Below are positions 11,300 through 22,663 of a stretch of 32,556 bases of DNA, piece by piece. The notes beneath the pieces are model-generated. The model worked only from the letters and a program-made list of their open reading frames with translations. It was not told the origin of the DNA and did not search any database. Position 1 is the first letter of the stretch, and each line of letters starts with the position of its first letter. Source of the DNA: Nitrospirota bacterium. Its GTDB lineage: Bacteria > Nitrospirota > UBA9217. Made by a program: the position numbers and the translations under genes. The stretch covers positions 1-32,556 of the forward strand of contig JAOUEV010000042.1 of NCBI GenBank assembly GCA_029858565.1. Direction: 5' to 3'.

Positions 11300-11638
11300 C
11301 TATATCAGCTTTATGCACGTTGAAATCACTACTGAAACTAGCATAAGACCCGAGATTAGATAAAGCTGTTTTATCGCTTTATCAGTTGAAACCTCCTCCT
11401 TGAATAAGGCTCCGAGAAGAACAACTTTCGCATACAACGTCACGGCCAAGGTAAGAGCTGTGAATATCACGGCCGTTGGAAACAACCATTTCAAATTCGC
11501 TGATACATTTACTTTTTCTATTGCAGTCAGCAAGAAACCCAAAACTGCTATTTGCGCGGTAATCATAAACTTGAAATAATCAGCCAGCTTGTCGAATTTA
11601 AACGTATTTGAGTATTTTTCCTGATTCATTTCCTTCAT
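11300..11638 (-). CDS. Small three-helix membrane protein at the end of the Liv/polyprenyl operon
   Basis: 112 residues of unknown function. A charged N-terminus (MKEMNQEKYSNTFKFDKLADYF) is followed by three hydrophobic helices at about 26-41, 50-76 and 91-110, separated by the cytoplasmic-type segment FKEEVSTDKAIK. The ATG at 11636-11638 has AGGAGG nine bases upstream. The gene begins 12 bases after the livF stop and shares the operon's low GC, so it is the ninth gene of the transcript. It is convergent with the MFS gene (16 bases apart) and no clear hairpin terminator separates them. It might be an accessory subunit of the transporter. There is no family assignment. Confidence 0.6.
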   Translation of the reverse strand: MKEMNQEKYSNTFKFDKLADYFKFMITAQIAVLGFLLTAIEKVNVSANLKWLFPTAVIFTALTLAVTLYAKVVLLGALFKEEVSTDKAIKQLYLISGLMLVSVVISTCIKLI

Positions 11639-11650
11639 TATGTTTTCCTC

Positions 11651-12355
11651 CTATCCTCCAAGAAATGCTGATTTAACTTTTTCGTTCTCAATTAACATAT
11701 CCCCTTTATCTTCCATAAATATACCGCCTATTTTAAATACATATCCTCGCTGGGCTATTTCAAGTGCCATTCGTGCGTTTTGTTCAACGAGGAGAATGCT
11801 AGTTCCAGCTTTGTTGATTTCGATCAATTTATCGAAGATTACATCCACATAAACCGGAGACAAGCCGAGCGATGGTTCATCGGCAAGGAGAAGCTTTGGC
11901 TTCTGTATCAGTGCCCTCCCGAGTGCTAGAAGCTGCTGTTCTCCGGTCGAAAGTACACCTGCCTTCTGCTTTCTTTTTTCTTTAAGCGAAGGGAACATGT
12001 CGAGGATATTCTCGATATCAGCTTTAATATCGCCATTCTTCCGATTGAACGCGCCCATCTCAAGATTCTCTATGACCGTCATGGAATGAAACAATCTCCG
12101 GCCTTCTGGCACAAGCGAGATACCCAGAGGTACGTGCTCATCAGGCCTCAAGGCGCTGATGCTGCTGCCATCGAACAACATATCGCCTGAGTGCAAAGGG
12201 ACCATACCGAACACAGCTTTGAGGGCCGTTGACTTCCCCGCGCCATTCGGTCCGATCATAGCCACGATCTCGCCTTGATTGACGTTAAAAGAAACGTCCT
12301 CAATGGCCTTAACCGAACCATAGTAGACTGCTATGTTCATGGCTTCAAGAAGCAA
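11651..12355 (-). CDS. livF: Branched-chain amino acid-type ABC transporter ATPase, LivF family
   Basis: 234 residues from a TTG start at 12353-12355, giving the family-typical beginning MLLEAMNIAVYYGSVKAI. The longer open frame upstream is unlikely because it lies inside livG. Walker A is GPNGAGKST, the signature is LSTGEQQLLALGRAL, Walker B is LLLADEPSLGL, and a switch His region (EQNAR) is present. LivF hydrolyses ATP as a heterodimer with LivG to drive substrate import through LivH-LivM. The start overlaps the livG stop by 11 bases. The substrate may not be an amino acid, given the embedded peptide and polyprenyl-synthase genes upstream. Confidence 0.93.
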   Translation of the reverse strand: MLLEAMNIAVYYGSVKAIEDVSFNVNQGEIVAMIGPNGAGKSTALKAVFGMVPLHSGDMLFDGSSISALRPDEHVPLGISLVPEGRRLFHSMTVIENLEMGAFNRKNGDIKADIENILDMFPSLKEKRKQKAGVLSTGEQQLLALGRALIQKPKLLLADEPSLGLSPVYVDVIFDKLIEINKAGTSILLVEQNARMALEIAQRGYVFKIGGIFMEDKGDMLIENEKVKSAFLGG

Positions 12356-13118
12356 TCTTTCTTCCCTTTCCCATATATGCTTCCAATACAACGGGATTGT
12401 TCCGAATCTCCGTGGGGGTGCCTTCGGCTATTTTGCTTCCGTGATTCAACACAACGATGTGGTCGGATATATCCATCACGACCTTCATATTGTGTTCGAT
12501 AAAGAGGATGGTTTTACCTCTTGTCTTAAGATCTGCGATAATCGACATAAGTTTCGGTATCGTATTCGGAAAGACCCCCGCTGTGGGTTCATCGAAAAGA
12601 TAAAAATCGGAGTCAGTCCCGAGCGTTCGGGCGATTTCGAGAAGCCTTCGTTGGCCATGGGACAGATTCTCCGCACGGTCGTCAAATTTCTCCTCCAGAC
12701 CGACTGTTTTAAGCAACTCCATCGCCTTTTCAGTGTTCTCTTTTTCTTGTTGGATCAAAGATGGCGATCTCAGCAATGCAGCAAGGAGGGTCTCACCGCT
12801 ATTGTACTCAAGCCCGAGCATTACGTTTTCAAGCACAGTCATTTGAGGAAACAACCTAATGGCTTGAAAAGTTCGCCCCATCCCAAGGTGAAATATCTTG
12901 TTCGGGGAGAGATGAGTGATATCTCTATCATTGAACCTTACACTACCTGTTGTTGGGCGATAAAAGCCTGTAATAACATTGAATGATACTGTTTTCCCAG
13001 ACCCGTTCGGACCGATCAGAGCTGTTACGGCTCCCTTCTTAACGTTGAAAGACAGTTCGTTAACTGCCTGAATTCCGTCAAAGCGTTTCGACAGATTATG
13101 TACTTGAAGGATGTTCAT
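12345..13118 (-). CDS. livG: Branched-chain amino acid-type ABC transporter ATPase, LivG family
   Basis: 257 residues. Walker A IGPNGSGKT is at about 35-43, the signature LSHGQRRLLEIAR at about 152-164, Walker B FYLFDEPTAGV, and the LivG-specific C-terminus IEHNMKVVMDISD...EAYMGKG. Walker A is followed by Val instead of the common Thr/Ser. The ATG at 13116-13118 directly abuts the livM stop, so translation is coupled. It pairs with LivF in the cytoplasm. Confidence 0.94.
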   Translation of the reverse strand: MNILQVHNLSKRFDGIQAVNELSFNVKKGAVTALIGPNGSGKTVSFNVITGFYRPTTGSVRFNDRDITHLSPNKIFHLGMGRTFQAIRLFPQMTVLENVMLGLEYNSGETLLAALLRSPSLIQQEKENTEKAMELLKTVGLEEKFDDRAENLSHGQRRLLEIARTLGTDSDFYLFDEPTAGVFPNTIPKLMSIIADLKTRGKTILFIEHNMKVVMDISDHIVVLNHGSKIAEGTPTEIRNNPVVLEAYMGKGRKIAS

Positions 13119-13988
13119 CTACCTGAACCGGTAATCCCCGATTATCCCCTGCGGTCTCTTGAGCATCAGAAGCACTAATAGGCCGCCGTATATCATCTGC
13201 CTGAGCGGCGCGGCAACGGAGCTAGGCATTCCAAGGAACCTGAGCATTTCAGGTAATATCACAAGTGTCAACGCACCGACAAACGAGCCTTTAATGCTTC
13301 CCATTCCACCGAAAACAACCATCAACAGCACGGCTATGGACTCCATAACAGTAAAACTTGAAGGATCAATAAAAGTAATGTAATGAGCATACAGACTTCC
13401 GGCTATCCCGGCAAAAAAAGCGCCAATAACAAAGACCGTGATCTTATATCGGTTGACGTTTTTCCCTATTGAAAGGCTTGCAACTTCATCCTCCCTAATA
13501 CTTCGTAGGACCCTTCCAAAGGGAGAATCAACTACTCGATTAATGATAAAGGTTGTGAATACAATGAAGACTAACACGAAAATGAGATAAGCCCAAACAG
13601 GTTGAAGCTCGTAACTAAAAAAGGAAAACTTAGGAATCCCTGGGAGCCCCATCGGCCCCCTCGTGAGATCAATCCAGTTTTTCGATATTGAATAAACGAT
13701 GACGCCGAAGCCAAAAGTCGCAAGGGCGAGGTAATCCCCTTTGAGCCTTATAGACGGGAACGCGATAACAAAACCAAAGAAAGATGCCGCACAAGCCCCT
13801 ACAATCAAACCGATCCACGGAGATATGCCGAAGTTTAATGCCAGGATACCCGATGAATAGGCACCTATGCACGCAAAGGCGATATGACCGAGTGCAGGAA
13901 GTCCGGTATAGCCGATGATTAGATTGAGGCTAAGGGTAAGAATGATATAGATACCAGCGATTATTAGAATATGTAGCAGATATGCCAT
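13119..13988 (-). CDS. livM: Branched-chain amino acid-type ABC transporter permease, LivM family
   Basis: 289 residues with 8-9 membrane helices. Family segments visible are LSLNLIIGYTGLPALGHIAFACIGAYSSG near the N-terminus, SIRLKGDYLALATFGFG, and the coupling-loop segment SPFGRVLRSIREDEVASLSIGKNV that contacts the ATPases. GGMGSIKGSFVGA and a C-terminal LKRPQGIIG follow. It forms the inner-membrane pore with LivH. The ATG at 13986-13988 abuts the livH stop. All motifs are intact. It is shorter than the LivM of the second cluster because it lacks the N-terminal extension. Confidence 0.94.
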   Translation of the reverse strand: MAYLLHILIIAGIYIILTLSLNLIIGYTGLPALGHIAFACIGAYSSGILALNFGISPWIGLIVGACAASFFGFVIAFPSIRLKGDYLALATFGFGVIVYSISKNWIDLTRGPMGLPGIPKFSFFSYELQPVWAYLIFVLVFIVFTTFIINRVVDSPFGRVLRSIREDEVASLSIGKNVNRYKITVFVIGAFFAGIAGSLYAHYITFIDPSSFTVMESIAVLLMVVFGGMGSIKGSFVGALTLVILPEMLRFLGMPSSVAAPLRQMIYGGLLVLLMLKRPQGIIGDYRFR

Positions 13989-14840
13989 CTATAGATTCTC
14001 CCTATCCGTCCTCTTGCCTAAAATTCCCTCAGGTCTAAACAGAAGAAAAGCAATGAGCACAGCAAAGGATATGGTGTCCTTCCAGCCCGCCTGAATCTTC
14101 CATATACCAAGATTTTCTACGATGCCGAGAAAAAAGCCTCCTAGAACGGCCCCAGGTATGCTCCCGAGCCCACCAATGATAGAAGCAATTATCCCTTTAA
14201 GTATCAAGTTCAGCCCCATAGTCGGTTCAATACTTGATTCAAGGGAGATCAAGCCACCAGATAGCCCCGCAAGAGCAGAACCGATACCAAAGGAATAAAT
14301 GATTATCCGTTCAGGATTAATTCCGGAAATACTTGCGCCAAGAGGGTCGTCCGCAACAGCTCTGATAGCCTTGCCAATTCTTGTCTCTACGACAACTGAA
14401 CGAATAAGGACCAACAATAGACAACTTATAACTATTATCGATATCTGCACGTTCGTAATGGTGCCCCCCATTATCAAATGCCCCTCGCTAACAGGTCCTG
14501 TTTTGAGAGAAAGAATCTGGGCGCCATAGAGAATTTGAAAAAGGTTTTGTATGAAGATAAATATGCCGAAGGAAGTAATGGCTAATATTAGATTAGAAGA
14601 GCCTATCACTCTCAAATAAGAATATGTTGTTTTATAAATAACAATACCAAGAACGGTTGTTATTAAGGAAGAAACAACTATCGATAATAAAAGGGGAATA
14701 CCGACAAAGCATGAAAGGCTATACGCAATATAAGCACCTGCAACAATCACTGAGCCATGAGCAAAATGAAAGAAGCGAATAGTTTTATAAATTATTGCAA
14801 AACTCAGAGCCACTAGGGAATAGATGCCGCCTACTACCAA
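13989..14840 (-). CDS. livH: Branched-chain amino acid-type ABC transporter permease, LivH family
   Basis: 283 residues from a TTG at 14838-14840. Family signatures are GGIYSLVALSFAIIYK and FFHFAHGSVIVAGAY, the loop KAIRAVADDPLGASISGINPERII facing the ATPases, GGLGSIPGAVLGGFFLG and LLFRPEGILGKR. The reading frame stays open for nine more codons upstream (FTSILIFGL), which fits the usual first helix of LivH better. That frame begins with ATT at 14865-14867, immediately after the stop codon of the upstream gene and just downstream of a strong AGGAGGAG. Initiation at this rare ATT, or coupled re-initiation, is plausible. The true N-terminus is therefore uncertain. Confidence 0.9.
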   Translation of the reverse strand: MVVGGIYSLVALSFAIIYKTIRFFHFAHGSVIVAGAYIAYSLSCFVGIPLLLSIVVSSLITTVLGIVIYKTTYSYLRVIGSSNLILAITSFGIFIFIQNLFQILYGAQILSLKTGPVSEGHLIMGGTITNVQISIIVISCLLLVLIRSVVVETRIGKAIRAVADDPLGASISGINPERIIIYSFGIGSALAGLSGGLISLESSIEPTMGLNLILKGIIASIIGGLGSIPGAVLGGFFLGIVENLGIWKIQAGWKDTISFAVLIAFLLFRPEGILGKRTDRENL

Positions 14841-14867: not shown

Positions 14868-15686
14868 TTACTCCTCCTGTTTATCTTTGTTATTGATTTC
14901 AGTCAGAATGAGGTTCACTCTTCCCATTAGAGGTTTATATGATATAAGAGGTAAAAGCCATGATGTTGCATAAAGTATTAATGATAAACTTAAAACTCCG
15001 AGAATAACGTGCAAAGGGAAAGAAGCTTGATGCAAATACAATTTTCTAATATCCTCTACGCCCAAAGCGGAACTATTCAGCATAAAATAATCAAATGAAA
15101 ACCTGGAAAGTATAATGACTAGATTTGCGGTAAACGCAATCCATATATTCCTATAACATTCAAAACCGCGAATTTTACCAGTCGACCAATACTTGATTAA
15201 TATCGTTTTTTGGTATGTATTAATTAGAAAATAAGATCCCAACGAAAACAGAGCATAAACGAATAACTCTAGAAATAAACATATGCTAGATGTAAGCCAA
15301 TATTTTTCCGGACTAAAGGAAGAAAGATATATAGTGATTCCGACAAATGCCGAAAAAATAACTAATGCCATACTCTGAGTAACTATAAAATCTACGACGT
15401 ATACGAACCTAGGAATGCTATCCTCTAAGCTATTAAATTTTTCCTCGATTTTTTTAAGCTTATTTTCGCTTTTTTCCTTTTCATCATCAGTTAGACTAGC
15501 ATCCTTCTGGATCTTCTTATTATCTTCTTTAGCCTTATCAAGCTCTTCATGAGATTGCTCCAGTTCATCGACCAGCTCTTTTACATATGAATACACCAGC
15601 GCTGGCAAAAATGCTGCCAAAGCCATCGCGATAGCCAAAAATTGAAAAGCCATTTGCGACATCAGGCTATTATCCAAATTATCCAC
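14868..15686 (-). CDS. Coiled-coil multi-pass membrane protein, unknown, inside Liv operon
   Basis: 272 residues. One membrane helix lies at about 12-34, then a long charged coiled coil at about 36-90 rich in Glu/Lys (ELVDELEQSHEELDKAKEDNKK), then four more hydrophobic helices at about 97-121, 131-157, 181-197 and 224-250. It ends in a charged tail. I recognise no family. The start is GTG at 15684-15686 with a strong GGGAGG seven bases upstream. The gene lies 10 bases after the polyprenyl-synthase stop and its TAA abuts livH. The order (binding protein, peptide, polyprenyl synthase, this protein, permeases) suggests a membrane partner for the enzyme, the peptide or the transporter. AT-rich like its neighbours. 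Confidence 0.75.
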   Translation of the reverse strand: MDNLDNSLMSQMAFQFLAIAMALAAFLPALVYSYVKELVDELEQSHEELDKAKEDNKKIQKDASLTDDEKEKSENKLKKIEEKFNSLEDSIPRFVYVVDFIVTQSMALVIFSAFVGITIYLSSFSPEKYWLTSSICLFLELFVYALFSLGSYFLINTYQKTILIKYWSTGKIRGFECYRNIWIAFTANLVIILSRFSFDYFMLNSSALGVEDIRKLYLHQASFPLHVILGVLSLSLILYATSWLLPLISYKPLMGRVNLILTEINNKDKQEE

Positions 15687-15696
15687 AAAACCTCCC

Positions 15697-16623
15697 TTAT
15701 TCTGGAATCAATAAAGCGGCAATATCTTTCAATGGTTGTTTGAGACGATCAATCTTCAACTGTTTGACGCTATTAATTGCCTTTAGGCAATAATATTTTG
15801 CTTTTCGCTTGCTATATTGAATTGATCCGATTTCATTTAGAACTGATATAACATCTTTTATATCGTTTTCGGTTACATCTTTTTTGCTATAAACAATCTT
15901 TATCTTATCTACTTGTTTTGCACTCCCAAAACGCAAAGCGTGAATAATCGGCAACCTGACTTTCTTTTCCTTGATATCACCGCCAACCAGTTTTCCCATG
16001 CTTACGGTATCTGAAATGAGATCCACGACGTCATCTTTAATCTGATACGCCATCCCGATATTCAGACCGTAGTTATTAAGGAGATTATATGTCGGCTTAT
16101 TAAAACCATTGATGATTGAACCGATAATCAGAGGGAGTTGAATAAAAGATGCTGTTGTCTTTTGAATCATCCCATAGTAACCTTTTTCAGTAAAACTCCA
16201 TTTATCAACATCTTTGGTTACTCGAATATCCTCCAATTGTCCTAAGCAAACGGTCCTGTAGGTATCTTCAAAAACCAACATGCACTTAATGCGAGTCTTG
16301 CTGTCAATTTCTGGTAGTTTCTCTAATGCTTGTATTGCGGCGATACTCGCTGATGATTTTAACAATTCGGCAATCAGAACCGTTTGTTCCTCACCGAATC
16401 GAGAAAGTAACGAGGGAATACCGTTACGGATAGGAGATTTATCTAAGAAATCATCCATAATTAGCGTGGATGATTTCATCAACTCAAAACACTTTGCCAA
16501 TTCCAAATGATGCTTACTTGTTTTTCTCGGCATGAGCACGCCGTAAAGTGTAGTTATAAGATGAATTTGCTCTTTTTCAAAACTGAGCTGCTCAGCTATC
16601 AACTCATCAACGATAGGCATCAT
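15697..16623 (-). CDS. Polyprenyl-diphosphate-synthase-like enzyme (isoprenoid synthase type I fold)
   Basis: 308 residues. The first aspartate-rich motif DDFLD is at 57-61 in the context LIMDDFLDKSPIRNGIPS. The second, AYQIKDDVVDL (DDVVD at 197-201), is followed by GGDIKEKKVRLPII, the K/R-rich loop of this family. GQLEDI and QKTTAS, which contact substrate, are also present. Typical members condense isopentenyl diphosphate with an allylic diphosphate. ComQ, which prenylates the ComX peptide, is a divergent member of similar length. The start is ATG at 16621-16623, overlapping the peptide gene's TGA. A GTG one codon earlier is the alternative. Its position between a 53-residue peptide gene and transporter genes, not among isoprenoid genes, argues for a dedicated product. 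Confidence 0.85.
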   Translation of the reverse strand: MMPIVDELIAEQLSFEKEQIHLITTLYGVLMPRKTSKHHLELAKCFELMKSSTLIMDDFLDKSPIRNGIPSLLSRFGEEQTVLIAELLKSSASIAAIQALEKLPEIDSKTRIKCMLVFEDTYRTVCLGQLEDIRVTKDVDKWSFTEKGYYGMIQKTTASFIQLPLIIGSIINGFNKPTYNLLNNYGLNIGMAYQIKDDVVDLISDTVSMGKLVGGDIKEKKVRLPIIHALRFGSAKQVDKIKIVYSKKDVTENDIKDVISVLNEIGSIQYSKRKAKYYCLKAINSVKQLKIDRLKQPLKDIAALLIPE

Positions 16624-16784
16624 CACTTTTTTCTATTTTTAAGAAAACTTCCTGTTCCTTTCAGTAGTTTTTTAACATCCCCGACGTTAAATGCTGCTTT
16701 TGAATAACCATTCTGCGCTACTGTGGTCAGCGACGCCGGCAAACCATTCTTCTTAATTCTTTCGTCAGGTGGAAACTGTCCCAT
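16623..16784 (-). CDS. 53-residue peptide, possible precursor peptide
   Basis: A short gene with an excellent ribosome binding site (GAGGAGGGATATT then ATG at 16782-16784). It stops in TGATG overlap with the polyprenyl-synthase start, so translation of the two is coupled. It begins 12 bases after the binding-protein stop. The peptide starts MGQFPPDERIKKNGLPAS, has a central AQNGYSKAAFNVGDV, and ends in a basic tail KKLLKGTGSFLKNRKK. It has no Cys and no Trp, one Tyr, and a net positive charge. There is no signal peptide and no membrane helix. The coupling to a prenyl-transferring fold suggests a modified peptide, but lack of Trp/Cys excludes the known ComX-type and CaaX-type prenylation. It could also be a small regulatory or structural subunit. 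Confidence 0.65.
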   Translation of the reverse strand: MGQFPPDERIKKNGLPASLTTVAQNGYSKAAFNVGDVKKLLKGTGSFLKNRKK

Positions 16785-16796
16785 AATATCCCTCCT

Positions 16797-17909
16797 CTAA
16801 TGTTTCAATAATTTAACTTCTATAGGCTTATGGACATCGCCATTCTTATCAAATTCAATTAAACCTGAAGCCCCATCATGTTTTTTGATATTCATTAAGC
16901 TTTTTCCGATACTTTCACCGTCGAGACCGCCGCCCATTTCAACAGCCTTTTTAAAAAGCATAACGGCATCATACCCCACATCTGCTAATGCAGGAGGCGC
17001 TTTCTTATATTTCAAGAGGAACTTATCCTTAAAATTCTTCGTTGATAACGTATCCGAAATAAATGGTACTGGATAGTATAATTCATAGTTATTCTTCTTT
17101 ATAACATCTGTCACGGTACCATCCAGCATCACTGTCGTCCCAAGCCAAATCCCTTTATATCTCATTTCCTTTGCCTGCTGAATAATTTTCACGCAATCCT
17201 TTGAATAACCAACGAGATAAATTGCCTCAGGCTTGTTAGAAAGTAATTTTGCTAATTGCGTGCGGTACTCAGGCGAACCCTGCTCAAAAGATTCAACATT
17301 TGCGGGTTTGAGGCCTCTCTCACTTAACTGAGATCGGAACACTTCTGATAGTCCAAGACCATAATCGTTATTTGCATATAAAACTCCGATATTTTTCAAC
17401 TTCAACTTATCGACGGCATATCTTGCTAATTCTTCGCCTTCTAAGGAGTCTGAATTCCATATTCTAAAAATATACTCACCTGCCTGAGAAATCTTAGGTG
17501 CTGTGGAGCCTGTAGACAATAAAACCACTTTGTTTTTCTCAGCTATTGGAGCCAGCGCCAGAGTCACCGAACTGATGCTATCATCTACCACATATGAAAC
17601 ATGATTAACATTGATGAGTTTATTAAGCGCTGAAACCGCATTTCGGGGATCGGCTTGTGTGTCTTCATAAACTATTCTGATCTTCTTGCCATCTAATCCT
17701 GACTGATTGATCTCACTTACAGCCAGTTCCATGCCTTCACGTGTGTTTATTCCTGCTATTGCAGCGTCGCCCGTCAATGGTAATACTGCCCCTATCTTTA
17801 TTTCTTTTTCATCCTTCTTCACACACCCCAAAGAAAAGACGACCAAAGCAGCCATGAGAATCAGGATTAGCTTGCGTAGTGATGTAAACATATTCTTGGA
17901 TATTTTCAT
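16797..17909 (-). CDS. Periplasmic substrate-binding lipoprotein of Liv-type ABC transporter
   Basis: 370 residues. It has a lipoprotein signal peptide with a hydrophobic core LILILMAALVVFSLG and lipobox ending in Cys29 (FSLGC), so it is anchored to a membrane lipid. The mature part is a type I periplasmic binding fold (Peripla_BP_6): EIKIGAVLPLTGDAAIAG, GMELAVSEIN, YEDTQADPRNAVSALNKLI, LLSTGSTAPKIS, GVLYANNDYGLGL and YDAVMLFKKAVE. These are the standard landmarks of the LivJ/LivK family. The ATG has GGAGG nine bases upstream. It is the first gene of the nine-gene operon. Family ligands include branched-chain amino acids, amides, urea and small peptides, and the ligand here cannot be read from sequence. 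Confidence 0.92.
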   Translation of the reverse strand: MKISKNMFTSLRKLILILMAALVVFSLGCVKKDEKEIKIGAVLPLTGDAAIAGINTREGMELAVSEINQSGLDGKKIRIVYEDTQADPRNAVSALNKLINVNHVSYVVDDSISSVTLALAPIAEKNKVVLLSTGSTAPKISQAGEYIFRIWNSDSLEGEELARYAVDKLKLKNIGVLYANNDYGLGLSEVFRSQLSERGLKPANVESFEQGSPEYRTQLAKLLSNKPEAIYLVGYSKDCVKIIQQAKEMRYKGIWLGTTVMLDGTVTDVIKKNNYELYYPVPFISDTLSTKNFKDKFLLKYKKAPPALADVGYDAVMLFKKAVEMGGGLDGESIGKSLMNIKKHDGASGLIEFDKNGDVHKPIEVKLLKH

Positions 17910-17982: not shown

Positions 17983-18417
17983 TTACGAATTCTCTTTTTT
18001 CAACGCTCGGAGTATTCTTCGTATACAACCTTCTTTGTTGCTCTTCAATTGATGCTGCCAAATGCGTATGACTTTCCAATCTCGTGCTCGAAGTTTTCTG
18101 ATATTTTGACGATCACGTCTTCTATTTTCTGTCAGTTTCTTTCGCCAGAACGCAGTTAATTTGTGTTCCCACGCTGGCAACCTCCATCCATGCCAAAAAT
18201 CACCATCCACGAACACCGCGAGCTGCTGCTTCATAAACACGATGTCCGGGCTGCCTGGCAGAGATCGAACATGCCGCTGAAATTTGTAGCCGCGTGACCG
18301 AAGCTCTTTTTGAACGATTATTTCAATAGAACCATCTTTGAGTTTTACGCTCTTCATCGCACGCGAGCGTTGCTCCGGCGTTAAGTGGTCTCGATCGCGA
18401 TATTTCCATTCCTTCAT
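17983..18417 (-). CDS. Vsr-type (very short patch repair) endonuclease
   Basis: 144 residues. The Vsr landmarks are present in order: TPEQRSRAMKSVKLKD, RGYKFQRHV, LPGSPDIVF (Asp58 corresponds to the catalytic metal-binding Asp), VFVDGDFWHGW, FWRKKLTENRRRD, and WKVIRIWQHQL. The family nicks DNA 5' of the T in T:G mismatches made by deamination of 5-methylcytosine, which matches the adjacent cytosine methyltransferase. The cysteines that bind structural zinc in E. coli Vsr are missing: GDFWHGW in place of GCFWH...C, and WQHQL in place of WECxL. It overlaps the GHKL-ATPase gene by ATGA, so the two are translationally coupled. Confidence 0.9.
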   Translation of the reverse strand: MKEWKYRDRDHLTPEQRSRAMKSVKLKDGSIEIIVQKELRSRGYKFQRHVRSLPGSPDIVFMKQQLAVFVDGDFWHGWRLPAWEHKLTAFWRKKLTENRRRDRQNIRKLRARDWKVIRIWQHQLKSNKEGCIRRILRALKKENS

Positions 18418-20375
18418 ATTTGATTGACGAGTTGTTGTATGCGTGAAATTTTCTGATTTTTATCGAGATAATCCGCGTAACTTTCCCGCGTCTGCCTGAT
18501 CAACTGCTCATAAGTGATATATCTGGCTCCCAAGACTTCCAACATTCTGCGGTTGTTATCATCGTAATCAGTCGGCTCGGGACGGTCTCCTAATATGCAA
18601 ATAGTCTCGATGCTGTGTCGCTTTACATCCGGATAAGCTTTGGCGAGACACTTTTCCAGGGCGGTCATGTACTTTCGAACTTGCGCTGTCAACTCTTCGA
18701 TCTGCACTTTTCTGTCGTATTTCTTAAGTTCTAAGATGATGTGTTTTCCAGCGGCGGTCCTATAACGAATGTCGATTCGACCACGCTTCTCTTCCTTCGT
18801 CAAGCCTGCATCCAACTTCTTCCAATCTTTTGTAACAGCCTCTTCCATTCGTTTGTCGGTCGACGCGCGCTCCCACGAGGGATCTAATAGCCACAAATGA
18901 GCGAAGATATAATCACGTATTACGGTCTCACGTTCTTTTGGTGCGATTTTCTCGAATTTCTGTAAAACGGCGACGCGCGTTTTCGTGATATGCCAGTAAT
19001 GCGCAGCTTCCAATTCGTCGATATCTTTGAAAATCTCTATTAAGCGTTGCAAATCCTCGTGACTCTCGAATTTGTCGAGTACGTCGAGATTGTCTTTTGC
19101 AGCCAGCGTCTCGAAGGCTAGAATGCCGTGCTGATAGAGCGTTTTTCGGAATTCCTGATCTTGAACTGGGAAAGACGCGATTTTTCCGAGTAGCTTCTTC
19201 GCAAATTTCTTATGACGTGGATTGAGGGTCTTGAACCACTCGTCGATCGCGGGGTTCTTGAGCGCCTCAGCGCCCTTATCCTCGTTCCGCCAATCCGTCC
19301 ATACATTCCCAATATGGTTGAGAATCATGTCCTTCACGAACGTCTTCAGTTGCCGGTACCGAGAGTCGCTTTCCTTGACGCTTTGACGGTCGCTCGTCGC
19401 GATATCCGCAAGATCATCACGATCCAAAAAATCCGCTCGTAATTCGCCGATCAGATACTTGCTGAATACCCGGCCCTCCTTGAGATCAGGCAGGATGTTT
19501 TCATGTATGACTTTACCGCGAGCGAGGATCACGATGCCGTTGTTTACTTCTTCGAGATTCTTGTGCTCGGCCATCGTCCCGACCCACCCAGATACCTCGT
19601 ACGCGTGCGTCCCGTCGACAGTTCCCGATAACGTTTCGTGCCTTAGCGTTTTTCCTTGCTTGAGGTACGTTTCGTTTTTTTCGCCAACGAACCAAATATA
19701 TTCGAGCTTACCGAAATAATCGCGGTCCTCGACGGTGATAGATTTATCGTTGATGCGAACGTTAAAACCAGTGCTTTTCCCTATGACGCTGAAACGCCGC
19801 GCAAGCCGTCTGCGTAGAAAAGACTCCGTAACATTCGCGTCGATCTTCAGGTCACGAAGCGTTAGGAGCGTACCCTTCTTGATTTTGATCCGATTTTCCG
19901 GCAGTGGATCGGGTTTGTATTCAGGCTGCCTGCCAGGCTGTTGTTTTCTGATCTCCGATTCAATGTCCGTGGCGCTCATGACGAAACCATTGCGCTCGAC
20001 GATTTTCCCGTGCTTGTCGAGCTTCACGCTATGAACTTCGATGGTATTTGCGATGGAGAAGAGGGCGAGTTTGCCGATTCCTTTTCGCCCCATCGGGAGA
20101 CGGCCTTTCGGTATCTGGGCATTTTTGTCTTCACGCTTCCGGTACCCGACTTTCAAAAAACGGTCGTTGATTTCCGCTTCAGTCATGCCCCAGCCGTCGT
20201 CCGAGACGGTTATAGTCGCGCTCGCAGTGTCGATGTTTATATCGACCACTTTGGCGTCGGCGTCCCATGCATTGGCAACAACTTCGGATAACACCGCTGG
20301 AATGTTGCTGTAAAGTCCGATGCCGAGATGTTCGAGCGTGGCGAGGTCTATGGTTAGCCTATATTCTTTTTTCAT
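18414..20375 (-). CDS. GHKL ATPase (MutL/MORC/HSP90-like) fused to PD-(D/E)XK-like domain
   Basis: 653 residues from the ATG at 20373-20375. An earlier start at 20396 would add seven residues. The ATP-binding Bergerat fold is at the N-terminus: Glu31 and Asn35 in SEVVANAWDADA, the DDGWGM motif at 59-64, and GRKGIGK at 96-102. The C-terminal region contains RGRIDIRYRT...KHIILELKKYD, with Asp535, Glu549 and Lys551 spaced as in PD-(D/E)XK nucleases. MutL/MORC-like ATPases next to cytosine methyltransferases and Vsr proteins are a known arrangement in restriction-modification-type loci. It probably is the ATP-dependent, DNA-cleaving or sensing component. Its start overlaps the methyltransferase by 17 bases and its stop overlaps vsr. 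Confidence 0.88.
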   Translation of the reverse strand: MKKEYRLTIDLATLEHLGIGLYSNIPAVLSEVVANAWDADAKVVDINIDTASATITVSDDGWGMTEAEINDRFLKVGYRKREDKNAQIPKGRLPMGRKGIGKLALFSIANTIEVHSVKLDKHGKIVERNGFVMSATDIESEIRKQQPGRQPEYKPDPLPENRIKIKKGTLLTLRDLKIDANVTESFLRRRLARRFSVIGKSTGFNVRINDKSITVEDRDYFGKLEYIWFVGEKNETYLKQGKTLRHETLSGTVDGTHAYEVSGWVGTMAEHKNLEEVNNGIVILARGKVIHENILPDLKEGRVFSKYLIGELRADFLDRDDLADIATSDRQSVKESDSRYRQLKTFVKDMILNHIGNVWTDWRNEDKGAEALKNPAIDEWFKTLNPRHKKFAKKLLGKIASFPVQDQEFRKTLYQHGILAFETLAAKDNLDVLDKFESHEDLQRLIEIFKDIDELEAAHYWHITKTRVAVLQKFEKIAPKERETVIRDYIFAHLWLLDPSWERASTDKRMEEAVTKDWKKLDAGLTKEEKRGRIDIRYRTAAGKHIILELKKYDRKVQIEELTAQVRKYMTALEKCLAKAYPDVKRHSIETICILGDRPEPTDYDDNNRRMLEVLGARYITYEQLIRQTRESYADYLDKNQKISRIQQLVNQI

Positions 20376-21447
20376 CGCTACACTCGGCCTCCACATGTCG
20401 CTTGATGGATTTGCCTACCACTGCACCTAGCCGGACGGGGACCGCATTGCCGATCATTCTACCAATCGTTTTAAAACTGATGTCTTCACCGCGCCGGACG
20501 AATTCGTAGCTTCGCGGGAACGACTGGAGTATCGCGCCCTCGCGCAGTGATATCGCTCGGTTTTGTTCAGGATGCCCAAATCTACCGTTGCCGAAACCGA
20601 AGAACTGTGTCGTGATCGTCGGGGCAGGCTCGTCCCATTTCATCCGGCCATAGACGCTTGGATAGGTTCTACCCTTCTTCTTGCGATGACATTTCGCGAC
20701 AAGCTCTTTGGGCCAATCTCGCCATGTGCCGCCTGGCTGCGAGTTACGAATTCGGCTTAGGTTCGTATCCGACAATGCGCTGCTGCGATGGAGTGGATCG
20801 GCCTGGCATGTTTCGCCGGCCTGGAGTCTAGGTAGATGATCAATCACGTCTTTGACGACGGCATATTTCTCTGGGTTGTGTGTGGGTGGGATGATCTGAA
20901 TGGGGCCGAGCAACGACGCGAACAAGACGAGCCGTGTCCGATGCTGAGGGATGCCATAGTCCGGGCAGAAAACTTCGTGCGTTGATACGTAATACCCGAG
21001 ATCTCGCAGCATCGCGAGAAATTCATCGTATATGGAATGCCGCTGTAACTGCGGTACATTCTCCATACTCACGACATGAGGCTTCAATTCACCGACCAGT
21101 CTTCCAAAATGTGCAAGGAGACCCCATTTCTCATCAGCTACAGTTTTAAGACCCTGAGTGTACTTAGAAAAAGGCTGACACGGTGCGCAACCGACGAGAA
21201 CGCACACAGCATCTGCCGGATAAAATGCCTTGAGTTGTTTCCCGCTGATATCAGTGACGCTTTTTTTCTTAAAGATTGCCGGTCGGTTGTTTTTTTCATA
21301 AGGATAGCGGCATGCCTCGTCTATGTCGAAACCTGCGACGACTCGAATGCCGGAGTCGAGCAGGCCACGTGTCAGTCCACCTGCGCCGCAAAATAAATCT
21401 GCGGCGACAATATTTCGATTGTCCAACTTAGGCTGTTGCATCTTCAT
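20359..21447 (-). CDS. DNA (cytosine-5-)-methyltransferase
   Basis: 362 residues with all key motifs: I (DLFCGAGGL, 17-25), IV with catalytic Cys90 (CAPCQPF), VI (ENV, 129-131), VIII (QHRTR, 168-172), a target-recognition region at about 190-275, and X (GNAVP, 333-337). It transfers a methyl group from S-adenosylmethionine to C5 of cytosine in a specific DNA sequence. The recognition site is not predictable by eye. It lacks an obvious strong ribosome binding site. It sits 100 bases after the ParB-like gene and overlaps the GHKL ATPase, so the four genes 22663-17983 are probably one operon. Confidence 0.96.
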   Translation of the reverse strand: MKMQQPKLDNRNIVAADLFCGAGGLTRGLLDSGIRVVAGFDIDEACRYPYEKNNRPAIFKKKSVTDISGKQLKAFYPADAVCVLVGCAPCQPFSKYTQGLKTVADEKWGLLAHFGRLVGELKPHVVSMENVPQLQRHSIYDEFLAMLRDLGYYVSTHEVFCPDYGIPQHRTRLVLFASLLGPIQIIPPTHNPEKYAVVKDVIDHLPRLQAGETCQADPLHRSSALSDTNLSRIRNSQPGGTWRDWPKELVAKCHRKKKGRTYPSVYGRMKWDEPAPTITTQFFGFGNGRFGHPEQNRAISLREGAILQSFPRSYEFVRRGEDISFKTIGRMIGNAVPVRLGAVVGKSIKRHVEAECSDEKRI

Positions 21448-21547
21448 AGCAGGATAGGTGAGTTTAATTTAGCGAAAAATGCAATCCTTCGGTAGCCATG
21501 GTTCATAAAGAGAATGAGACGCGGAGCGTTACATGCTTCTCGCATGC

Positions 21548-22663
21548 TCATGCCCGCGTCTTCTGGTACATTTCATCCGATATACTCTTGGCGATATCGA
21601 GCATGCCGTACATCATGCCGCACGTATCCGTGTCGCCTGCGAACCCCGTTGTGACTGTTGCTTTTGCAGCTTGGAGAGCACATTTTACCTGAATCAACGC
21701 TTCCTGAAAACGCCTCGCGTCACCCAAACTGATCTCGTGCGCCCGTTGCAGGCTTATGCCTGATCTGAGGGCATAGAGTGCCTGCTTGTTGCCGATAACT
21801 CGCTTGAGATAGCCCAAATGGGGATTTTGCTTCTCGACGACAGGCGATTTGGCTTCCGACTTGCTGCCGAATAGCCATACCATGAGTTCCTGAAGTTGCG
21901 GCAGGTGACTCTTGGGAACAGGGTCATCTTGTAATGACCGTTCAGGGTCGATATTCAGGAACTTCTGGAATTCCTTCTCAGCGGCCGCGGTATAAAGATG
22001 TGAAAAATGAAAACGGTTGGCGATCCGATCGTCCCGATCAAAATCTGTCTTCTTCTCCGCCTGCTCAAGCAAGACGAAACCACGATAGATTCGCGTGACC
22101 GTGCTGTGTTGGTCGCCGATCTTACGGGCTATCTCATCGAGTGGGATGTCCCATTCCCTGCGAACTTTGGCAATATAGGCTGCCTTGCTGAACGAATCCC
22201 ATTCTTTCGGGCCATTTACGTGGCGGAAGCCGAAGTACTCCCATAGTGACTTTTTGTCCGGATAGACCGAAACCGGCAATTGTTCCAGGTCCTTGCGCCG
22301 TTGAGCGCTGATTTTAGGAAGGTCTGTCGCTTTTACAGCACGACGCAGGTCCGCGTCTATCAGTAATTTAACTACTGCAAGGCGACGATTTCCTTCGACA
22401 ACGATATATTTCTGTTTCTTTTCGTCCTTCTCAAGTGGATGCTTTGGAACGACAAAGAGCGGTTCCTCTTCAAAATATCCGTTCGCCTCGATAGATAAAG
22501 CAACCTCGCTGACGGCCATTTCATCCCAGAGAACTTGAACAAGAGCATCTTGTGATTGTTTGTCACCGATTGCGCTGAGGCGCGGATTATCCTCATCGAA
22601 CAAAAGTCGATCTACGTCGATGGATTTTATTACTAGTTGCTTATGTTCGTATTTTAATGCCAT
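21548..22663 (-). CDS. ParB/Srx-fold N-terminal domain protein with HTH (defence-cluster member)
   Basis: 371 residues. The N-terminal ParB-like domain carries IDVDRLLFDEDNPR and the conserved box IVVEGNRRLAVVKLL (GNRR at 91-94), the nucleotide/phosphate-binding signature of the ParB/sulfiredoxin fold. A helical region around DIPLDEIARKIGDQHSTVTRIYRGFVLL (about 175-200) is a ParB-type helix-turn-helix. The C-terminal 120 residues are unassigned. Chromosomal ParB proteins bind parS and CTP. Isolated versions such as this, beside a methyltransferase and Vsr, are common in defence and mobile loci and may act as nuclease or DNA-binding specificity factors. There is no ParA partner here. Confidence 0.85.
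   Translation of the reverse strand: MALKYEHKQLVIKSIDVDRLLFDEDNPRLSAIGDKQSQDALVQVLWDEMAVSEVALSIEANGYFEEEPLFVVPKHPLEKDEKKQKYIVVEGNRRLAVVKLLIDADLRRAVKATDLPKISAQRRKDLEQLPVSVYPDKKSLWEYFGFRHVNGPKEWDSFSKAAYIAKVRREWDIPLDEIARKIGDQHSTVTRIYRGFVLLEQAEKKTDFDRDDRIANRFHFSHLYTAAAEKEFQKFLNIDPERSLQDDPVPKSHLPQLQELMVWLFGSKSEAKSPVVEKQNPHLGYLKRVIGNKQALYALRSGISLQRAHEISLGDARRFQEALIQVKCALQAAKATVTTGFAGDTDTCGMMYGMLDIAKSISDEMYQKTRA

Follow-up and report, generated by a model that had tools for sequence, protein, structure and literature searches.

Enzymes of the isoprenoid fold that modify peptides are known from the ComQXPA system of the Bacillota, where ComQ (286–309 aa; PMC4008528) acts on ComX, and from PalQ and ChrPC, two trans-isoprenyl-diphosphate-synthase-like (trans-IDS-like) Trp prenyltransferases. 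Every trans-IDS-like peptide prenyltransferase characterised so far has Trp as its target (PMC13290415), and PalQ rejects any other residue (PMC13290415, PMC10853753). The second motif (SARM) is treated differently by these enzymes: PalQ keeps its aspartates (PMC10853753), and a DDxx(D) second motif has been reported as unsuitable for Trp prenylation in ComQ (PMC5331326). In Rv2173 the IPP site comprises Lys43, Arg46, His77, Arg90, Thr195 and Phe232 (PMC12035560). Loss of the IPP contacts with retention of DDxxD is the mark of IDS-derived terpene synthases, and those of the LlTPS2 type ionise their substrate without elongating it (PMC12376265).

Here we describe a locus from a Nitrospirota bacterium, in a window of 32,556 nucleotides (the whole stretch of DNA that was analysed; contig JAOUEV010000042.1, assembly GCA_029858565.1). 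A three-gene insert, which starts with a small peptide gene and continues with an enzyme and a membrane protein, lies between the binding-protein gene and livH of a Liv-type importer operon. The features, in the order of the operon, are:

16797..17909, minus strand: Liv-type (Peripla_BP_6) substrate-binding lipoprotein, 69% identical in the homologous locus and at most 34% identical to other matches
16789..16796, minus strand: ribosome-binding site GAGGAGGG of the peptide gene (CAGGAGG in the homologue)
16623..16784, minus strand: small basic protein of 53 aa, ATG start and TGA stop, with a 57-aa homologue (50% identical) in the same place, and under purifying selection
15697..16626, minus strand: trans-isoprenyl-diphosphate-synthase-fold enzyme, 309 aa, starting at GTG 16626 or, likelier, at ATG 16623
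14868..15686, minus strand: membrane protein of 272 aa and no recognised family, with hydrophobic segments and a coiled coil
13989..14840, minus strand: LivH-like permease
13119..13988, minus strand: LivM-like permease by sequence reading, with a homologue in locus L033
12345..13118, minus strand: LivG-like ATPase by sequence reading (Walker and signature motifs)
11651..12391, minus strand: LivF-like ATPase by sequence reading (Walker and signature motifs)

The operon may finish with the gene of a 112-aa small membrane protein that has no family match and lies directly after LivF (11300–11638, minus strand); the contig of the homologous locus stops short of the equivalent position. Directly before the operon lies a type II restriction-modification island (17983–22663, minus strand) with a Vsr endonuclease, a HATPase-type restriction enzyme (PADLOC REase_II), a cytosine methylase and a ParB-like protein, the last with a weak PD-Lambda-5_A match. 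The window also carries a second, ordinary Liv-type operon that is cut by the contig end (28597–31292, minus strand), and a TumE-like toxin frame (PF20126; 5808–6212, minus strand) beside an SNF2 helicase gene.

The peptide gene had been picked out in a preliminary description of this DNA as an unlisted 53-codon frame, marked by a strong ribosome site, a TGATG overlap with the enzyme start and a 12-base gap after the binding-protein gene, and all of these were confirmed in the sequence. Read on the minus strand from 16784 to 16623, it encodes MGQFPPDERIKKNGLPASLTTVAQNGYSKAAFNVGDVKKLLKGTGSFLKNRKK, followed by the stop codon. The ribosome site GAGGAGGG is followed by ATATT and then by the ATG, and the stop overlaps two candidate enzyme starts, GTG at 16626 (GTGA) and ATG at 16623 (TGATG), of which the second agrees better with the homologue when the two are aligned. 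When the 174-base stretch was shuffled 20,000 times with its composition preserved, just 188 shuffles gave an ATG frame of at least this length, so the frame is unlikely to have arisen by chance. As described, the peptide is basic (net charge +8) and has neither Cys nor Trp; it has a single Tyr, and no hydrophobic membrane stretch was found in its 53 residues. Comparison of the peptide with Pfam, NCBIfam, PHROGs, PADLOC and the PDB gave nothing beyond chance, and there is no Rfam RNA near the gene. The frame is a genuine small-protein gene that had previously gone unlisted.

A search for the enzyme in 99 related genomes revealed one true homologue (56% identical), on contig JAHFEP010000097.1, from a Nitrospirota of another class that is distantly related to the window organism. 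Two weaker enzyme matches in family f35 were rejected as ordinary synthases, which carry GGKRLRP. The gene order on JAHFEP010000097.1 is the same (binding protein, 57-aa peptide, enzyme, membrane protein, livH and livM), with identities of 69% for the binding protein and 50% each for the peptide and the membrane protein. The peptide pair aligned with a score of 110, compared to a maximum of 46 in 5,000 shuffles. Note that pN/pS is given here and not dN/dS, since synonymous sites are saturated: across the two loci it was 0.41 for the peptide (95% 0.26–0.62), 0.34 for the enzyme and 0.44 for the membrane protein. Judged from this comparison, the peptide gene is under purifying selection. Two observations had been named in advance as refuting the gene, namely absence of the frame from other loci with the enzyme and a synonymous to non-synonymous ratio near 1; neither occurred, and the frame is present in the sole other locus.

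Conservation is unevenly distributed along the peptide. Residues 1–7 (MGQFPPD) are identical at 7 of 7 positions and residues 29–45 at 12 of 17, the latter containing the central segment KAAFN-xxx-VK-x-LL-x-GTG, while 5 of 18 positions are identical in residues 8–28 and just one of the last eight aligned residues; with a family of two sequences, there is little to define the invariant positions. AlphaFold2 modelled the peptide with low confidence (mean pLDDT 65), the best-supported helix being residues 34–42. In the homologue, the C-terminal residues are an out-of-frame reading of the start of the enzyme gene, and are therefore unlikely to be a core peptide. This is the opposite of the pattern proposed for a precursor, a conserved C-terminal core with variable flanks.

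The peptide, the enzyme and the membrane protein were each found in the same 2 of 396 Nitrospirota genomes, and in none of the other genomes of either class; weak peptide matches in five other genomes (E 0.03–0.1) were at chance level and were discarded. A contig scan with the membrane protein (narrow patterns) returned JAHFEP010000097.1 alone again, viral contigs held no homologue of the membrane protein, the peptide or the enzyme, and plasmid and phage searches gave distant synthases only. Since identity to further binding proteins in the relatives does not exceed 34%, the whole operon behaves as a patchily distributed unit, and it has probably moved by horizontal transfer. The source genome (3.9 Mb) encodes two further, ordinary prenyl diphosphate synthases, and therefore the cassette enzyme is accessory.

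The membrane protein consists of an N-terminal hydrophobic segment, a coiled-coil stretch and three further hydrophobic segments. Family searches found no recognisable relatives, and its predicted structure, of low confidence, had no PDB match. In its first segment, FQFLAIAMALAAFLPALVYSYVKELVDELEQ, 31 residues are identical in the homologue; since the protein as a whole is 50% identical, this segment probably has a specific role.

The enzyme matches the polyprenyl synthetase family (PF00348, E 3e-45) and retains the motifs DDFLD (FARM) and DDVVD (SARM; DDMID in the homologue). The SARM-side Gln and the first Arg after the FARM are kept in both cassette enzymes. In both, the four basic residues of the IPP site, K/R/H/R, are replaced by E/H/K/N (E19, H22, K51 and N68). 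These K, R, H and R were present in 32/32 ordinary synthases compared, 31 of which had been chosen by their GGKRxRP motif, which introduces some circularity where the first two residues are concerned. At the N-terminus of the enzyme, 34 residues failed to align to the ordinary-synthase profile, which leaves the loss of the first K/R (E19/H22) weakly aligned; loss of the His and the second Arg (K51, N68) is secure in the alignment. Opposite the Lys of the KT motif of ordinary synthases stands a Thr, with a Lys one residue earlier, and given this Thr, donor binding may be different as well.

We compared these enzymes with ComQ and ComX controls, for which the annotated sequences of four plasmid records were used. 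The IPP-site pattern was lost in 4/4 ComQ, which kept the first DDxxD and the Gln before the second motif. The second motif, however, was intact in none of the four (GD or ND), and the pseudo-SARM (N/G)Dxxx of the ComQ type does not occur in the cassette enzymes. The latter match ordinary synthases with up to 118 bits and ComQ with up to 47 bits, and in the tree they form their own branch (99/97) outside the ComQ branch, with long branches that make the exact placement unsure. By the criterion of PMC12376265, the residue pattern fits a non-elongating IDS-type terpene synthase. Since the IPP site is lost, the second motif is intact and the sequence is nearer to ordinary synthases than to ComQ, the enzyme is probably a non-elongating prenyltransferase or a terpene synthase. 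The initial label of polyprenyl synthase is probably wrong as a description of function. A gene of an Acaryochloris plasmid (positions 2833–3780 of locus L072), located after a DUF4157 protein and annotated as polyprenyl synthetase, also lacks the IPP-site residues and possibly encodes another non-elongating enzyme.

A strong ribosome site precedes the peptide gene in both loci and none is clear before the enzyme gene in either, and therefore synthesis of the enzyme probably depends on translation of the peptide. The two genes overlap in both loci, in support of the earlier view that the peptide gene is real and is coupled to that of the enzyme, and on these signals translation of the enzyme appears to be coupled to that of the peptide. 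Our favoured reading, which we put forward tentatively and at somewhat less than even odds, is that the non-elongating enzyme has the peptide as its small cytosolic partner, co-made with it by coupled translation within the importer operon. The two proteins would be made from one mRNA and would assemble together, with MGQFPPD and the central conserved segment as the putative docking parts of the peptide. At the intact DDxxD sites of the enzyme, an allylic prenyl diphosphate would be bound and ionised but not extended with IPP; its prenyl group would instead be cyclised or go to a different acceptor. A compound brought in by the Liv-type importer is a candidate acceptor, and the membrane protein may hold the complex of peptide and enzyme at the membrane. 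What was observed directly is a conserved gene, its operon and the residue pattern of the enzyme; the partnership, the acceptor and the membrane placement are what we infer. The partnership is supported because the gene order and the coupled overlap are the same in both known loci, because the pN/pS of the peptide is close to that of the enzyme, and because peptide, enzyme and membrane protein were found in the same two of the 396 genomes only. It is weakened because two sequences make up the family, because the structural model of the peptide is of low confidence, and because coupling would also fit a purely regulatory role.

Such a role would make the frame a translational control element, perhaps slowed at Pro-Pro-Asp, that sets the amount of enzyme, with the peptide itself doing little. 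It would account both for the conserved Pro-Pro-Asp and for the position of the enzyme start, over the peptide stop and without a clear ribosome site of its own. However, a mere leader would not need the constraint seen at residues 29–45 and in the pN/pS, and the peptide has no run of a sensed amino acid, so we regard this explanation as unlikely. The same can be said of a peptide whose role lies with the importer, for instance in regulating the Liv-type ATPases, or with the membrane protein. Its gene follows the binding-protein gene by 12 bases, a full importer is present, and the two genomes share the whole operon beyond the insert; against this, the overlap is with the enzyme gene, and the peptide, the enzyme and the membrane protein were found only in each other's company. 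Moreover, we know of no ordinary Liv operon that carries such a peptide.

The preliminary description had considered a prenylated precursor like ComX as one option. In this scenario the peptide is the substrate of the enzyme, which prenylates it at some non-Trp residue; the product is then trimmed and exported, and may be taken up again through the Liv importer. The peptide is of ComX-like size, it adjoins an enzyme of 309 aa, within the range of ComQ, that has lost its IPP site as ComQ did, and a binding protein and importer are encoded in the same operon. The likeness to the ComX/ComQ pair stood as far as the IPP site of the enzyme is concerned, but failed for the Trp of the peptide and for the gene order. 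All 4 ComX controls have a Trp near the C-terminus, and neither cassette peptide has Trp or Cys; Tyr27, which had been suggested as a new acceptor, is a Phe in the homologue. The characterised enzymes are Trp-specific, PalQ rejecting other residues (PMC13290415, PMC10853753), and the SARM of the cassette enzyme is a DDxxD, reported as unsuitable for Trp prenylation (PMC5331326). The tail, identical at 1 of 8 positions and read out of frame from the enzyme gene in the homologue, also speaks against a precursor, since conservation is N-terminal and central. The order of the genes differs too: the controls have comQ-comX, and here the peptide gene precedes that of the enzyme, followed by the membrane protein and the Liv genes. 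The peptide had no match to PF05952 (ComX) in Pfam, and a PF05952 search of the genome gave none either, with a sensitivity so poor that B. subtilis itself fell below the cut-off. Membership of the ComX family was thus rejected on the profile, the C-terminal Trp (the prenyl acceptor of ComX, among its last 5–10 residues) and the gene order (comQ, comX, comP, comA). A precursor would need an acceptor residue of a new kind, and we consider a substrate role improbable. An independently evolved prenylation or signal system outside the Bacillota, in which the intact-SARM enzyme would modify the Trp-free peptide (at Lys, Ser, Thr or the N-terminus) and the Liv importer would recapture the product, seems to us quite improbable.

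Finally, it is very improbable that the peptide is a detached N-terminus of the enzyme that rejoins it through complex formation or ribosomal slippage: the enzyme is N-terminally short compared to ordinary synthases, and an in-phase dnaX-type slippery heptamer, A_AAA_AAG (16632–16626, minus strand), lies directly before the peptide stop, where a −1 shift would enter the enzyme frame, but ComQ is about equally short, profile searches with the peptide, the enzyme and the joined sequence gave no gain in synthase score, and the homologous enzyme lies in the +1 and not the −1 frame, so that slippage is not conserved and the heptamer is probably due to chance.

This locus adds an unlisted family of small proteins. 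IDS-fold enzymes without an IPP site, so far associated with the prenylation of peptides or tryptophan in the Bacillota and with terpene synthesis elsewhere, are also found in the Nitrospirota, here with a dedicated small protein and inside an operon for an amino-acid-type importer. Annotation pipelines would label the enzyme a polyprenyl synthase and overlook the peptide. If the enzyme needs the peptide, an isoprenoid-fold enzyme would have an obligate partner of very small size; if the enzyme modifies the peptide, the Trp-only rule for this class of enzymes would fall.

Compared with known systems, the cassette resembles ComX/ComQ in that the gene of a 51–58-aa protein adjoins that of an isoprenoid-fold enzyme of about 300 aa without an IPP site, but unlike ComQXPA it has no ComP or ComA and sits in a Liv importer operon. 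PalQ/PalX and ChrPC also place an isoprenoid-fold enzyme beside a small peptide gene, but the cassette peptide shows neither the nitrile-hydratase-like leader nor the C-terminal Trp of PalX. With the ordinary trans-polyprenyl and geranylgeranyl diphosphate synthases (PF00348) the cassette enzymes share the fold family and both DDxxD motifs, but they lack the four basic IPP contacts, and the N-terminal helix region is missing or diverged. The non-canonical IDS-type terpene synthases (LlTPS2, sandfly; PMC12376265) are likewise IDS-derived, with DDxxD kept and the IPP-binding residues substituted, but they are derivatives of insect FPPS and have no peptide partner. The importer has the binding protein, two permeases and two ATPases of Liv-type (HAAT) branched-chain amino acid ABC importers in the usual order, except that three additional genes separate the binding protein from livH. 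Neither the fold nor the importer is new, and a small protein beside an IDS-derived enzyme was already a known idea; what is new is the small-protein family and the cassette.
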